From assembly GCA_013415695.1 (NCBI GenBank), contig JAAEEP010000014.1:1-64000 (forward strand): a stretch of DNA of 64,000 nucleotides. The letters run 5' to 3'. The position numbers and the translations under genes were made by a program. Under the pieces are notes generated by a model that saw nothing but the letters and a program-made list of their open reading frames with translations, was not told the origin of the DNA and ran no database searches. Source of the stretch: Methanomassiliicoccales archaeon (GTDB taxonomy: Archaea; Thermoplasmatota; Thermoplasmata; Methanomassiliicoccales; JAAEEP01). Positions within the stretch are counted from its first letter, which is position 1, and every line of letters starts with the position of its first letter. Of the stretch, positions 18,624 through 24,548 are shown piece after piece.

Positions 18624-18893
18624 TCATCCGAAATATACCCTTGTGGCTTCCGTGTCCTCTTTCTCTGGCTCCTTGGACTCGATGACATCGATAGCATAGA
18701 TAGCCATGAGCGGGATGATCCTGATCCCACCCTGCCCCTCTTCCGAATCCAGCTCGATGCATATCGCGGTCCCGTTGCCGAAAGAGGTATAGTACTTGAA
18801 CTCACCAAAGCTGACAAGGAATTCATCACCTGGCCCCTTGCTCATGATCCTGTATTTGGATCCCTTGGTGAAGGTCGGTTCTATATCCTTCAT
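18624..18893 (-). CDS. small protein of unknown function upstream of Elp3
   Basis: An 89-residue, mostly beta protein (MKDIEPTFTKGSKYRIMSKG ... GGIRIIPLMAIYAIDVIE), without cysteines except one and without a signal. I do not recognise the family; the strand pattern could be a small barrel. Its ATG overlaps the stop of the upstream regulator by 4 bp and Elp3 starts 14 nt after its stop, so it is a firm member of that operon. Confidence 0.75.
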   Translation of the reverse strand: MKDIEPTFTKGSKYRIMSKGPGDEFLVSFGEFKYYTSFGNGTAICIELDSEEGQGGIRIIPLMAIYAIDVIESKEPEKEDTEATRVYFG

Positions 18894-19288
18894 TCCCTCG
18901 CCTCCTTCTCCGCAAGCTCCTGGAAATGATCAATGGTCTTGCGGTAGCTCTCCATGGCCATCTCCACATTGGCTTCGGTGAAGCTCCACGCCTTGCGAAG
19001 GTCGCCATATCGTATCCTGTAACCCTTCTTCATCTGTCCATCCCGTTCGGTTTCCGACTCCTCAATGACATCCATCCCTTTCAGCTTGTTCAGATGCCGG
19101 TAAATGGTAGGGCGGGTGGTCTCAAGATATATGGCCATCTCATCAACCAGCCAGACACGTTTGATGTTACGCATGAAGCAGTCCATGAAGAGCCGGTATG
19201 GAACGCTTTCCTGGACGGTCCTGGCTTCCGTCTTGGGATCGTATCCTTTGGGGAGATAACCGATCTGTCTTAGAAACTGAAGAGCCAC
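18890..19288 (-). CDS. winged-helix transcriptional regulator, start uncertain
   Basis: A 132-residue protein with a winged helix-turn-helix in the middle (VWLVDEMAIYLETTRPTIYRHLNKLKGMDVIEE) and a charged helical C-terminus. It may control its own operon, which continues with the small protein and Elp3. The first standard start is GTG at 19288, but the frame remains open upstream to a stop at 19361-19363 and encodes plausible protein (for example PLTPLTNIDDVALQFLRQI) with no ATG, GTG or TTG. The true start may be non-standard, or the extra sequence is chance. Confidence 0.75.
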   Translation of the reverse strand: MALQFLRQIGYLPKGYDPKTEARTVQESVPYRLFMDCFMRNIKRVWLVDEMAIYLETTRPTIYRHLNKLKGMDVIEESETERDGQMKKGYRIRYGDLRKAWSFTEANVEMAMESYRKTIDHFQELAEKEARE

Positions 19289-19584: not shown

Positions 19585-20673
19585 ATGAATTTCAAGACAA
19601 TATTGGCAGCGGTGATAGTCGCGGTTATTGTGATTGCTGGAATTGCCGGTGCGTATTGGCTTACTCAGGAGGAGGAGGGAAATGTTGTCTACTGGACGCC
19701 TATTGCCCCAAACCTCCAGAAAGCCGCCGTTGCGTCCGGAGAGGTTGATGGTGGGGTTGCTTGGGAACCCTACTGCTCAGACGGATTCCTAGACGGCACC
19801 ACCAATGTCTGGAAGTGGTCTGACGAGCTTTGGCCGGGGCATCCATGTTGCGTAGTCGCAGTGGATAACCAATTTGCCGTTGATCATCCTGATTTGGTGA
19901 AGAGAGTAGTGAAAGTCCATGTCGAAGCCAACCGTTGGATTGCCGAGGCTCTCTCCAACACCTCAAGTGCCAACTATACAATGCTCTTGGAGATGGGTGC
20001 TGATTTCAGCAACAGGAACACAACAGTTATTGCGAGCTCCCTTGAGCATCTGAAGTTCCAGTACGAATTCGATCAGGAGTTCATGGACGGTCTTGAGGTC
20101 ATTACTGAGAAGTACATCGAGCAGGGACTAGTAGCAGAATCGAAGATTCAGGAGAGAGGTTACTCCAATATTAGCGACTTCGTTGCCTCCTTCATCAACC
20201 CGGCATGGTTGGTGGACATCGATGATGTTCAGCCAAGCGAAACCATCTTGGGTCAGGTGAGACTCGCATATCTCACTGGGGATGTTCATCAGCTAGCAAG
20301 AGTGGTCGCGATGAACACCACTGTCGGTGGCGGGGAGAACCTATTCGTGAAGTACGGTATCGGCATCATTGATCCCAATCCTGGTGGTTATGCGAACGGT
20401 GGTGCGGTCATGACCGCTTTTGCCGGAGGCCAGTGTGATATTGGTTTCCTGGGAAGCCCACCTGCGATCCTTCAACATCTGAACGCAGGGGTTGACATAA
20501 GTCTCGCATCTGTCGTAAACACAGAGGGATCTGCTATTTTCGTAAACCCCTCGATTACATCGATAGATGATTTCAAAGGGAAGACCTTTGCCACGCCTGG
20601 GGTTTCATCCATCCAGCATCTGATGCTACTGGACTACCTGACCGGCCAGGGTTTTGAGGTCAAACAGGCGTGA
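19585..20673 (+). CDS. NitT/TauT-type ABC substrate-binding protein, circularly permuted
   Basis: Membrane-anchored binding protein (hydrophobic anchor about residues 5-26). All landmarks of the NMT1/SsuA family are present but in the wrong order. VDGGVAWEPY (54-63) and HPDLVKRVVK (101-110), which belong to the second half, come first. They are followed by QVRLAYLTGDVHQL (224-237), CDIGFLGSPPAIL (284-296) and IDDFKGKTFATPGVSS (327-342), which belong to the first half. The protein ends at YLTGQGFEVKQA, just where VVYWTPIAP at residues 34-42 should follow. New termini therefore fall in the second lobe, and the old N- and C-termini are joined around residues 205-224. The reading frame is unbroken across both joints. 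Permease and ATPase genes follow, so it probably serves an importer of nitrate, sulfonate, thiamine precursor or a similar small molecule. Confidence 0.85.
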   Translation: MNFKTILAAVIVAVIVIAGIAGAYWLTQEEEGNVVYWTPIAPNLQKAAVASGEVDGGVAWEPYCSDGFLDGTTNVWKWSDELWPGHPCCVVAVDNQFAVDHPDLVKRVVKVHVEANRWIAEALSNTSSANYTMLLEMGADFSNRNTTVIASSLEHLKFQYEFDQEFMDGLEVITEKYIEQGLVAESKIQERGYSNISDFVASFINPAWLVDIDDVQPSETILGQVRLAYLTGDVHQLARVVAMNTTVGGGENLFVKYGIGIIDPNPGGYANGGAVMTAFAGGQCDIGFLGSPPAILQHLNAGVDISLASVVNTEGSAIFVNPSITSIDDFKGKTFATPGVSSIQHLMLLDYLTGQGFEVKQA

Positions 20674-20760: not shown

Positions 20761-21621
20761 ATGAATAGACCCGTGGTAGATGATAACAAGACCAATGGGG
20801 ATCGTCCTTCTCGCAATGGAATTGTGAAATGGTTCACGAGGCTTTTCGATCTTAAGGTCATCAGGACTATCGTAATCACCATCATATCGCTCACGGCATT
20901 CGTAGTGGTCTGGCAGGTAATAGCCAATGCATTGTCCAGCGAGTTCTTACCCCCGCCTGGTGATGTCTTTGACGCTTTCATTATCGTTTTCCAAGGACCA
21001 GATCCAGCCACAGGTCTCTCGATGTGGGACCACATCTGGGCAAGCCTTCAACGCTTCATTCTTGGTTTCATATTGGCCTTTGTTATTGCAGTCCCGCTTG
21101 GTTTAATAATGGGATTCTCGAAGATCGCCGAGGATTTCGGTAAGCCAATCGTTGAGATATTCCGCCCAATACCGCCTATCGCCTGGATTCCTTTTCTCCT
21201 CATCGTTCTTGGCTCCATACTCGGTCCAGTCGTCGCTATCTTCATCGGTGTATTCTTTCCAGTCCTGTCCAATGTCATCTTCGGAGTGAAGAGTGTGGAT
21301 CCTATCCTAATGGATGCGGCAAGAACGCTTGGTTCAAGCAAGCCCACGCTCTTCAGAAAGGTCATTTTCCCGTCGACTGTTCCCTATCTGATGACCGGGA
21401 TAACAATAGGATTGGGCATAGGGTGGATGTGCATAGTTGCAGCGGAGTTCTTTGGAGCTAGAGGAGGGGGGGTGGGTCAATTCATCATTCAACAGAGCAA
21501 CATTGGAAGATGGGATTGGATGTTCGCGGGACTGATCGTGATCGCCATCCTTGGTTTCGTCACAACCGGATTCAGTCGTTTCATTGAAAGGAGGGTGTCT
21601 AATTGGATGGGACAAATGTAG
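20761..21621 (+). CDS. ABC transporter permease, NitT/TauT (SsuC/TauC) type
   Basis: A 286-residue membrane protein with six hydrophobic segments after a cytoplasmic N-terminus. The EAA loop that contacts the ATPase is clear: DAARTLGSSKPTLFRKVIFP (about residues 183-202). PIPPIAWIPFLLI before it and GIGWMCIVAAEFFGARGG after it are typical of the SsuC/TauC/NrtB group. It is the channel of the importer whose binding protein lies 87 bp upstream, and its ATPase overlaps its 3' end by 19 bp. Confidence 0.92.
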   Translation: MNRPVVDDNKTNGDRPSRNGIVKWFTRLFDLKVIRTIVITIISLTAFVVVWQVIANALSSEFLPPPGDVFDAFIIVFQGPDPATGLSMWDHIWASLQRFILGFILAFVIAVPLGLIMGFSKIAEDFGKPIVEIFRPIPPIAWIPFLLIVLGSILGPVVAIFIGVFFPVLSNVIFGVKSVDPILMDAARTLGSSKPTLFRKVIFPSTVPYLMTGITIGLGIGWMCIVAAEFFGARGGGVGQFIIQQSNIGRWDWMFAGLIVIAILGFVTTGFSRFIERRVSNWMGQM

Positions 21622-22400
21622 TGCTTTCCATAGAGAATCTGAAGAAGGTCTTCGAGAAGGACGAGGACACCCTGGTTGCCATCCATGATTTCAATCTTAA
21701 TGTGAGTAATGGTGAGTTTGTCTGCGTACTTGGTCCCTCGGGTTGTGGAAAGACCACACTCCTGAGGATAATTGCGGGCTTAGTCGAACCATCAGGTGGG
21801 CGAATCCTACTCAACGGAAAAAAGATAGAAGGACCGGGTTCTGATAGAGGGATGGTGTTTCAGGAATTCGCCTTATTCCCTTGGAGAACGGTCAGGAAGA
21901 ACATTGAGTTTGGGCTTGAAATCAAGAACATTACCAAGGAGGTCAGGCACGCTACATCTCAGAAATACATAGAATTGGTTGGCCTCTCTGGATTCGAGAA
22001 CTCTCACCCCTATGAGCTTTCTGGTGGAATGAAACAGAGAGTGGGTATAGCTCGAGCCCTTGCTAATGACCCGTCAATCCTATTGATGGACGAACCATTC
22101 GGTGCCCTGGATGCCCAGACAAGGAATCAAATGCAGAAAGAGCTCCTAAGAATCTGGAAGGAGACAGGTAAAACTGTGGTATTCATCACTCATTCCGTGG
22201 ATGAGGCAGTTTATCTTTCTGACAGAATAGTGGTGATGAGCCCCAGACCAGGTACTGTAGCGGATATTTTCGAGATTACCCTCCCTCGACCGCGGGACAG
22301 GGCCGATGTCGAATTCGCTTCTCTAAGGAAGAGTATCCTCTCGGAGATCGAGAACATGGCAAATGCATCTAAGCCGACTTCTCCGCCGCATCCTCAATAG
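21603..22400 (+). CDS. ABC transporter ATPase, NitT/TauT (SsuB/TauB) type
   Basis: A 265-residue ATP-binding subunit. Walker A is GPSGCGKTT (about 44-52), the Q-loop is in VFQEFALFPWRTV, the signature ELSGGMKQRVGIARAL follows, Walker B is ILLMDEPFGALD, and the switch histidine is in FITHSVDEAVYLSDRI. FPWRTV and RPGTVADI are characteristic of the nitrate/sulfonate/taurine group. The start is TTG at 21603, 7 nt after AAAGGAGGG; a GTG at 21621 is possible but poorly spaced. It couples ATP hydrolysis to the permease. The last 32 bp overlap the convergent regulator gene. Confidence 0.93.
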   Translation: MDGTNVVLSIENLKKVFEKDEDTLVAIHDFNLNVSNGEFVCVLGPSGCGKTTLLRIIAGLVEPSGGRILLNGKKIEGPGSDRGMVFQEFALFPWRTVRKNIEFGLEIKNITKEVRHATSQKYIELVGLSGFENSHPYELSGGMKQRVGIARALANDPSILLMDEPFGALDAQTRNQMQKELLRIWKETGKTVVFITHSVDEAVYLSDRIVVMSPRPGTVADIFEITLPRPRDRADVEFASLRKSILSEIENMANASKPTSPPHPQ

Positions 22401-22895: not shown

Positions 22896-23780
22896 CTATT
22901 CCCCTTTCACCATCTTGGCGGCGTTGTCACCAGCGATGCATCCCTGACCCACCGCCCGGGCCAACTGCCATGGTTTTCCAGTGACGTCTCCGCACGCGAA
23001 GGCCCCCTTCACCTCGGTCTGGCAATCCTCATCAACCTTGATCTTACCAGATGGATCTGGGATAATATCGATATCCAGAGCAAGCTCCATGGAGCCTTTG
23101 GCTCCAAGCTCGATGAAAACCCCGTTGACCTCGATGATCCTACCGCCTTCGAGTTCGATCCCAGTGACCAGCTTCTCACCGAGAATCCTCTCGATCCTCC
23201 CCGGGTGAATGACCTCAATGTCACTTTTCTCGACCTTCGCCATCAGAGGTTTGGCCACCTGCATTTCATCTGCTATCCAGTAGACCTTGGATGCGTACTC
23301 CTTCAACAGCAATGCAGAGGCAGCCGCCTCACTCTCCCCTCCCACTACGGCTACCACCTTTCCCCTGAAGAAGTTGCAGTCGCACTGAGCACAGTAGCTT
23401 ACCCCACGACCATAATACTCTTTCTCGCCCTCTGCTCCAAGCTTCTTACGAGAAATACCAGGGGCCAGGATGATCGCTTTTGTGGTAATCTCTGTGTCGT
23501 GGTCTGTAAGGACCTTGAATCCATTATCGATTTTCTCTAGCTTCACTACCTCTTCCCTTAGCACCTCAGTACCGAATCGCTCTGCCTGGTGAACACCTGC
23601 ATCCACCAGATCTCTTCCATTAATGAGCTTTATTCCGAAGTAGTTCTCCACTTCATGACCAAATATGGCACTCTTCTCAGGATGCCCGATCATTATTGTA
23701 TCAGCTTTCTTCCTTGATGAATGAATAGCGGCCTGGATCCCAGCTGGACCGCAACCGATTATTGTAACATCTGCCTGCAA
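22896..23780 (-). CDS. thioredoxin reductase-like flavoprotein
   Basis: FAD-dependent dithiol-disulfide reductase, 294 residues. FAD is bound by GCGPAGIQAA (9-18) and GAFACGDVTGKPWQLARAVGQG near the end. The redox-active pair is Cys130/Cys133 in SYCAQCDC. The second Rossmann motif is VVGGESEAAASA (146-157). The usual NADPH 2'-phosphate motif HRRxxxR is absent; the equivalent region reads WIADEMQVAKP. Thermoplasma thioredoxin reductase also fails to use NADPH and a methanogen homologue uses F420H2, so the electron donor here may be unusual. A thioredoxin gene lies just upstream (23941-24336). Confidence 0.88.
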   Translation of the reverse strand: MQADVTIIGCGPAGIQAAIHSSRKKADTIMIGHPEKSAIFGHEVENYFGIKLINGRDLVDAGVHQAERFGTEVLREEVVKLEKIDNGFKVLTDHDTEITTKAIILAPGISRKKLGAEGEKEYYGRGVSYCAQCDCNFFRGKVVAVVGGESEAAASALLLKEYASKVYWIADEMQVAKPLMAKVEKSDIEVIHPGRIERILGEKLVTGIELEGGRIIEVNGVFIELGAKGSMELALDIDIIPDPSGKIKVDEDCQTEVKGAFACGDVTGKPWQLARAVGQGCIAGDNAAKMVKGE

Positions 23781-23940
23781 AGCATCTCCCCACTTCCTAT
23801 TGTCTTAAGTGCCTCTTAGAGATTTCGAGTAGATGGATTTGAAGTGAGCTTGAAAATTGTAAAATCGATGGTCTAGCCAATCAAGGCCATGAGAAAGGCT
23901 AGACCACGTTTTTCAGGATGAATTAGGATTTTCAATTGGT

Positions 23941-24336
23941 TCAGATGAAGGTGTTCAGCTTCTGCTTGAGCGCTTCTTTGGGAAAGGCTCCAACGATCTG
24001 ATCAATGATATGACCTTCCCTGAACACCAGCAAAGTGGGAATAGCGTAGATGTTGAAATCTCTCGCAATGCCTTGGTTCTCGTCGGTGTTGAGCTTTCCG
24101 AAGGCGATCTTGCCTTTCATCTCGTGTGAAAGCTCCTCGATAATGGGGGCTATCATCTTGCAGGGCCCACACCAAGGAGCCCAGCAGTCGACTACCGTTA
24201 TGGGATACTTACTTACAAAATCGCCGAAGTTACCGTCATTCACCTCGACCGGTCCAGTGGGCCAACCGTTGCCCTTAGAAGCCTCATTCATGATATCATC
24301 CATCATCTTCTTCTTGATCTTATCAATCTCGTCCAT
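23941..24336 (-). CDS. thioredoxin
   Basis: A classical thioredoxin with active site WCGPCK (about Cys56/Cys59 of 131), the cis-proline in YAIPTLLVF, and VGAFPKEALKQKL at the end. A 45-residue charged N-terminal extension (DEIDKIKKKMMDDIM ...) precedes the thioredoxin fold, as in several archaeal members. The ATG at 24336 has GGAG 9 nt upstream; the ATG at 24351 would add five residues. It is the probable substrate of the reductase 160 bp downstream. Confidence 0.92.
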   Translation of the reverse strand: MDEIDKIKKKMMDDIMNEASKGNGWPTGPVEVNDGNFGDFVSKYPITVVDCWAPWCGPCKMIAPIIEELSHEMKGKIAFGKLNTDENQGIARDFNIYAIPTLLVFREGHIIDQIVGAFPKEALKQKLNTFI

Positions 24337-24548
24337 AAGGATACACTCCATCGGTTGTGCAATCCTGGTGCAAAACCAAATCCACAGAATCTATTAAAAA
24401 CCTTTTGCTCCGACAGCCTATGAATATTGAACGAAATTTCTTCTTCGAAAAATGGATTTCTGGTAATGAAATCGAGGAATTGCTGCATTGGGGCCAGTTC
24501 CGAAGCATTTTTAAGAAGCAATTGCAATACGAGCGACTGTGATTGCAG

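Follow-up and report, generated by a model that had tools for sequence, protein, structure and literature searches.

Four circular orders of an NMT1/SsuA-type substrate-binding protein at one archaeal locus

The window, a stretch of 64,000 nucleotides, comes from a Methanomassiliicoccales genome of 1.99 Mb in 41 contigs (G000); the nearest named matches are likewise Methanomassiliicoccales. Its forward strand encodes at 19585–20673 a circularly permuted substrate-binding protein of 362 amino acids, starting with ATG. The frame is intact throughout, as the preliminary description had stated. A, B and C denote the consecutive parts of an NMT1/SsuA-type protein of normal order; the protein in the window is arranged as anchor-C-A-B. 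An N-terminal membrane anchor and an acidic linker (QEEEG) occupy 19585–19680 (+, residues 1–32), with a helix predicted at residues 3–26. Segment C, the C-terminal part of a normal protein, is placed first (19681–20238, +, residues 33–218) and holds the WEP and GHPCC motifs, residue 33 (nt 19681) being the new N-terminus of the permuted domain. The old C-to-N joint, with the short linker QPSETILG, lies at the rotation optimum (20236–20250, +, around residues 218–222). Segment A (20239–20490, +, residues 219–302) corresponds to the normal N-terminus, with QVRLAYLTGDVHQ and GFLGSPPAI. Segment B (20491–20670, +, residues 303–362) carries NTEGSAIFV, FKGKTFATPG and GFEVKQA and forms the new C-terminus; the last predicted strand (E) spans residues 358–361.

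Genes for a permease and an ATPase come after the binding-protein gene, again as described before. The permease (20761–21621, +) was TauC/SsuC-like, with a BPD_transp_1 match (E 8.3e-24) and 159.5 bits against the TauC model, under its cut-off of 342. The ATPase (21603–22400, +) was SaoA/TauB/NtrCD-like (ABC_tran E 5.2e-34), scoring 278 bits with the SaoA model and 271 bits with the taurine ATPase model, both under the cut-offs. Its first listed start codon is TTG, and its frame overlaps the permease. Upstream of the binding protein there was a divergent helix-turn-helix-like regulator (18890–19288, −), recognized by eye in the translation. A homologue adjoins the binding protein in the compared syntenic Methanomassiliicoccales loci (cluster 9), and the regulator may control the importer. 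Just downstream, a thioredoxin-reductase-like gene and a thioredoxin with a CGPC motif were read from the translations (22896–24351, −). The permuted protein is single-copy in its genome: a search there for a second, normal-order copy of the permuted family gave one match, to the window protein only. Elsewhere in the genome there was another NMT1_2-type protein in normal order, distant from the permuted family (L250, C10:17231–17899).

Sequence comparison confirmed the window protein as an NMT1/SsuA-type substrate-binding protein with its second half (C) before its first half (A-B). Pfam matched residues 32–122 to positions 151–240 of the NMT1_2 profile (65.8 bits, cut-off 24.7) and residues 270–360 to positions 29–120 of NMT1 (27.4 bits, cut-off 20.5). 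Since the match that comes first in the protein has the later profile positions, the halves stand in reversed order. In phmmer searches against the PDB, the native protein matched TauA (6ssy_A) as two out-of-order pieces (E 3.5e-8). After rotation, TauA (6ssy) was matched as a single collinear stretch (E 1.2e-12), and 7 distinct PDB sequences passed the threshold, compared with 3 before. An outgroup HMM was built from normal-order proteins only, from Asgard, other archaea and bacteria. Its best single domain scored 104.6 bits on the native protein and 210.4 bits on the protein rotated between WLVDIDDVQP and SETILG, a gain of 105.8. The gain across 55 C-A-B homologues had a median of 113.5 bits (range 75.5–154), and was about zero for normal-order (A-B-C) proteins. 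The distance from column 320 to column 1 in C-A-B proteins was 10–14 residues (10th–90th percentile). The homology spans both lobes of the window protein, and the normal N-to-C order is absent. With the SsuA_fam model the window protein reached 88 bits, under the cut-off of 163.5. The preliminary description held that the landmarks of such proteins are all present but rotated; Pfam, phmmer and the outgroup HMM agree on this, and rotating the residue order at the joints doubled the score against normal-order relatives.

AlphaFold gave a confident model of the C-A-B window protein (mean pLDDT 94.3, pTM 0.87), and likewise of a B-C-A protein (pLDDT 91.9, pTM 0.87). By Foldseek, the B-C-A model matched 3un6, NrtA, CmpA, TauA and SsuA. 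The C-A-B model had no match under E 0.001, its top match being a weak one to OpuAC, as is to be expected when a search depends on residue order. W60-E61-P62, H86-P87-C88-C89, D233 and H235 are conserved and common to most normal-order outgroups. The anchor would now be attached to the other lobe. This is inferred, without coordinates, from the agreement of such an attachment with the topology of type II proteins and with the secondary structure prediction.

Running a canonical-order HMM on all fetched loci, we assigned four circular orders, which goes beyond the preliminary description. The A-B-C order was found in the Asgard, Bathyarchaeota, Hadesarchaea and bacterial outgroups, and in L040, L041, L042 and L043. 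In the C-A-B order, the domain starts and ends near column 142. It was present at about 55 loci in Thermoplasmata genomes that are independent of each other, a few of them assembled as single contigs. Collinear matches fell in f1, f2, f3, f4 and f6, families within the window genome's own taxonomic order, and in f8, f20 and f24, families within its class. C-A-B with the identical cut site was also present in about 75 of the 150 Methanomicrobiales genomes sampled, as counted from the genome listing and then checked for domain order. The Methanomicrobiales proteins (L252, L254–L282) showed an apparent extra stretch within A. The B-C-A order, starting near column 80 and ending near 83, was found in nearly all f5 genomes, which, going by named records, include Methanomethylophilaceae.

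The fourth order (C2) is cut inside C at the second hinge, starting near column 185 and ending near 182 (medians). It was found at seven loci (L067, L127, L134, L135, L139, L140, L141). Rotating these proteins raised their scores against a B-C-A HMM from 256–281 to 401–416 bits, a gain of roughly 125–150; against the distant outgroup HMM most rows gained little (median 4.8 bits). For L140 there was no match to any NCBIfam model. An insert of roughly 20–30 residues follows the NSEGSG strand in fourth-order proteins (L067, L127, L134, L140) and in some B-C-A proteins of Methanomethylophilaceae.

Some genes were tandem fusions of the permuted domain. A (CAB)2 fusion was seen three times as one and the same gene (L023/L054/L167), and (BCA)2 fusions were found at L057, L058, L059 and L079. 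Other variants were also observed: a permuted binding domain fused to fibronectin type III domains, with a hydrophobic segment at the end (L055:1672–4437, G126), a frame of comparable length with 900 residues (L056:1–2700, G127), and a B-C-A protein with a C-terminal Ig-like/carboxypeptidase-regulatory-like domain (L121:2849–4399).

The different orders share their genomic surroundings. Over 19 kb stretches, common neighbours were found for the window, G134 and G011 (C-A-B), and G135, G136 and G012 (A-B-C). The same was true for the fourth-order G033 with the B-C-A G034, and for the fourth-order G091/G092 with the B-C-A G075. The BLAST clustering of neighbours took in every long open frame. 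Some of the listed frames were spurious antisense ones, which does not affect the reading, as the shared neighbour series is long enough. Having the same neighbours, the orders represent variants of a single orthologous locus.

With respect to the direction of change, a tree of 73 rows was calculated, with groups set by segment order and not by the tree; its bootstrap was not fully settled. B-C-A is nested inside C-A-B, and the fourth order has two separate origins, its placement as a single clade being rejected (AU p 3.6e-10). The Methanomicrobiales C-A-B proteins group separately, in a clade with a long stem. Their union with the Thermoplasmata family was not rejected (p 0.57), and it remains unresolved whether there was one origin with transfer or a second origin. 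Junction lengths are evidence independent of the tree. The B/C junction (columns 126–160) has 29–35 residues in A-B-C outgroups, 31 in L043, 40 in L040–L042, 40–46 in B-C-A and 41–45 in the fourth order. For the A/B junction (columns 70–98) the median is 29 in A-B-C and C-A-B, and the length is 38 in L139, the only fourth-order row with one match spanning it. We infer from these lengths that the extra residues are scars of former termini, and that B-C-A, the fourth order and L040–L042 descend from C-A-B. The inferred polarity, A-B-C to C-A-B to B-C-A to the fourth order, rests on the junction lengths and on the tree with its unsettled bootstrap.

The preliminary description had named two findings that would refute it, and one of them, the normal order at the syntenic locus, does exist, in G135, G136 and G012. 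These A-B-C proteins look like reversions and not like evidence against the permutation, because they are nested among permuted proteins and are about 8–9 residues longer at the C-A-B cut site. A return of C-A-B to A-B-C in a few Methanomassiliicoccales is thus probable. Alternatively, the Thermoplasmata A-B-C genes (L040–L043) could be retained ancestors, with C-A-B arising several times and A-B-C never regained. L043 lends this some weight, since its B/C junction is ordinary and short, with 31 residues; free of a scar, it may be ancestral. L040–L042, however, have the B-C-A-like junction of 40 residues, nest among C-A-B proteins and occupy the same locus, and the AU test rejects all A-B-C proteins on one side (p 2.7e-5). 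We regard general retention as unlikely, though it is the alternative that survives best.

As for the mechanism, permutation by duplication is the standard model, one of two for circular permutation, the other being fission and fusion (PMC3320104). Under the duplication model, the likely mechanism here, the binding-protein gene would have been duplicated in tandem and fused in frame. Surplus segments would then have been lost in frame, after the retained N-terminal anchor and at the C-terminus. In the window protein a short linker joins the normal termini, and the new termini are inferred to lie within a second-lobe loop. Re-permutation at the syntenic locus has most likely led from C-A-B to B-C-A in Methanomethylophilaceae, from B-C-A to the fourth order two times, and from C-A-B to A-B-C in a few Methanomassiliicoccales. 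Duplication, fusion and truncation would account for the rotated orders, the scars and the extant fused dimers. The fused tandems resemble intermediates of such a process, but may instead be late paralogous fusions.

By fission and fusion, the halves would have existed as separate genes and been joined in differing orders in each lineage. One C-A-B gene does have its parts on two overlapping frames (L062 in G009, identical in sequence to L208), by a frameshift, a sequencing error or a true split. Except for this frameshift-like case no stand-alone half genes were seen, and the residues added at old cut sites, together with the fused tandems, fit duplication and truncation better, so that we consider fission and fusion improbable. 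Returning to duplication and truncation, we lean, by a modest degree only, towards a hot spot. By this reading at least five permutations took place at one orthologous locus (A-B-C to C-A-B, on to B-C-A, two times to the fourth order, and back to A-B-C), each via a trimmed fused dimer that left scars. The anchor would thereby have changed its place among lobe 1, lobe 2 and the two hinges without loss of transport.

The importer context is kept at most loci. Permease and ATPase homologues lie downstream at 91 of 100 C-A-B loci, 67 of 80 B-C-A loci and 5 of 7 fourth-order loci, with a permease match upstream at two more of the latter. Many loci without downstream partners lie near the end of a contig or of the fetched sequence. 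Where the start of the protein is available, the anchor is nearly always N-terminal, according to the hydropathy scan, which is not a trained predictor; all C-A-B proteins have an N-terminal hydrophobic segment. The same scan found no C-terminal hydrophobic segment, except in the fibronectin-domain fusion L055. Most likely the two-lobed flytrap still works, capturing a small anionic solute and passing it to the permease and ATPase of the adjoining genes. This function is inferred from conservation, without expression, binding or transport data.

Our best guess for the substrate, in the absence of binding data, is a sulfonate-like anion; taurine, alkanesulfonate and SaoX-type models matched under their cut-offs, and so did SsuA_fam and TauA. 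The window genome carries McrA, and its organism is therefore a methanogen. Coenzyme M is a possible solute in methanogens. As the only substrate throughout the family it is not supported, as McrA was not found in eight carrier genomes of f8, f20 and f24. The ComA route was found in 0 of 22 genomes, by a test that, according to its control, also misses Methanosarcina.

It is very improbable that the permuted gene has lost its function and is decaying. A few relatives have stops inside the matched span, and nothing of the kind speaks against the window gene itself. Its frame is intact, the family is conserved across the order, operon partners are kept and the folds are confident; W60, E61, P62, H86–C89, D233 and H235 are invariant. 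An assembly error, the second refuting finding that had been named, by which a tandem pair that was collapsed or wrongly joined in a 41-contig draft would mimic the permutation, is ruled out by the independent genomes, since identical order and cut recur in dozens of independent assemblies from two archaeal groups, including the single-contig genomes G208, G201, G170 and G160, and synteny around the binding-protein gene is conserved.

The search for homologues in sister genomes thus bore out the claim of a natural, inherited circular permutation, supported by independent genomes, conserved gene order, conserved motifs and confident AlphaFold models of two orders. We are fairly sure that the gene encodes a working membrane-anchored binding protein of an ABC importer, and that its permutation is old, inherited and was later followed by re-permutation in place. 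The orders themselves, their synteny, the lengths of the junctions, the tree and the tandem fusions are direct observations; function, substrate, the duplication-truncation mechanism and the direction of change are inferred.

Natural permuted binding proteins are already known. The glycine-betaine-binding proteins of OpuAC and ProX type are related by circular permutation, with <24% identity, as compared by structure (PMC2395249). They too are type II binding proteins, and OpuAC was the top, though weak, Foldseek match of C-A-B; the OpuAC family was absent among the Pfam matches of the window protein. Those proteins are highly diverged, whereas the archaeal ones are orthologues with four orders at one locus. 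In Treponema, TpMglB-2 (Tp0684, 'Type Ic') is a naturally permuted, tethered ABC binding protein that retains ligand binding (PMC4990184). Unlike the archaeal family, it is bacterial, has a Type I sugar-binding fold and a single permuted order, and its permuted segment is poorly conserved with MglB. Type Ic membership was rejected for the window protein, as its sequence and the B-C-A model fall in the NMT1/SsuA group. With NMT1/SsuA/TauA type II proteins (PF13379, TIGR01728; PDB 6ssy, 3ksx, 3un6) the family shares homologous segments, motifs and importer partners. It differs in segment order, and no rotated-order member was among the PDB sequence matches. The fused tandems and leftover junction residues expected under the duplication model link the family with cases of permutation by duplication such as DNA methyltransferases and saposin/swaposin (PMC3320104), but in the archaeal family a single syntenic gene was permuted several times in succession, with a probable reversion. 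In open-licence papers, the only ones searched, neither permuted NMT1/SsuA-type proteins nor a series of permutations within one orthologous gene turned up.

The origin of circular permutations has mostly been inferred from distant single pairs; here one gene at one position has four orders. Convergent and probably reversed changes, fused dimers that resemble intermediates and residual stretches at old cuts make the duplication-truncation model directly testable. Rotated orders also explain why family models misread or miss such transporters, and the four orders show how far a two-lobed binding protein tolerates moved termini and a moved anchor.
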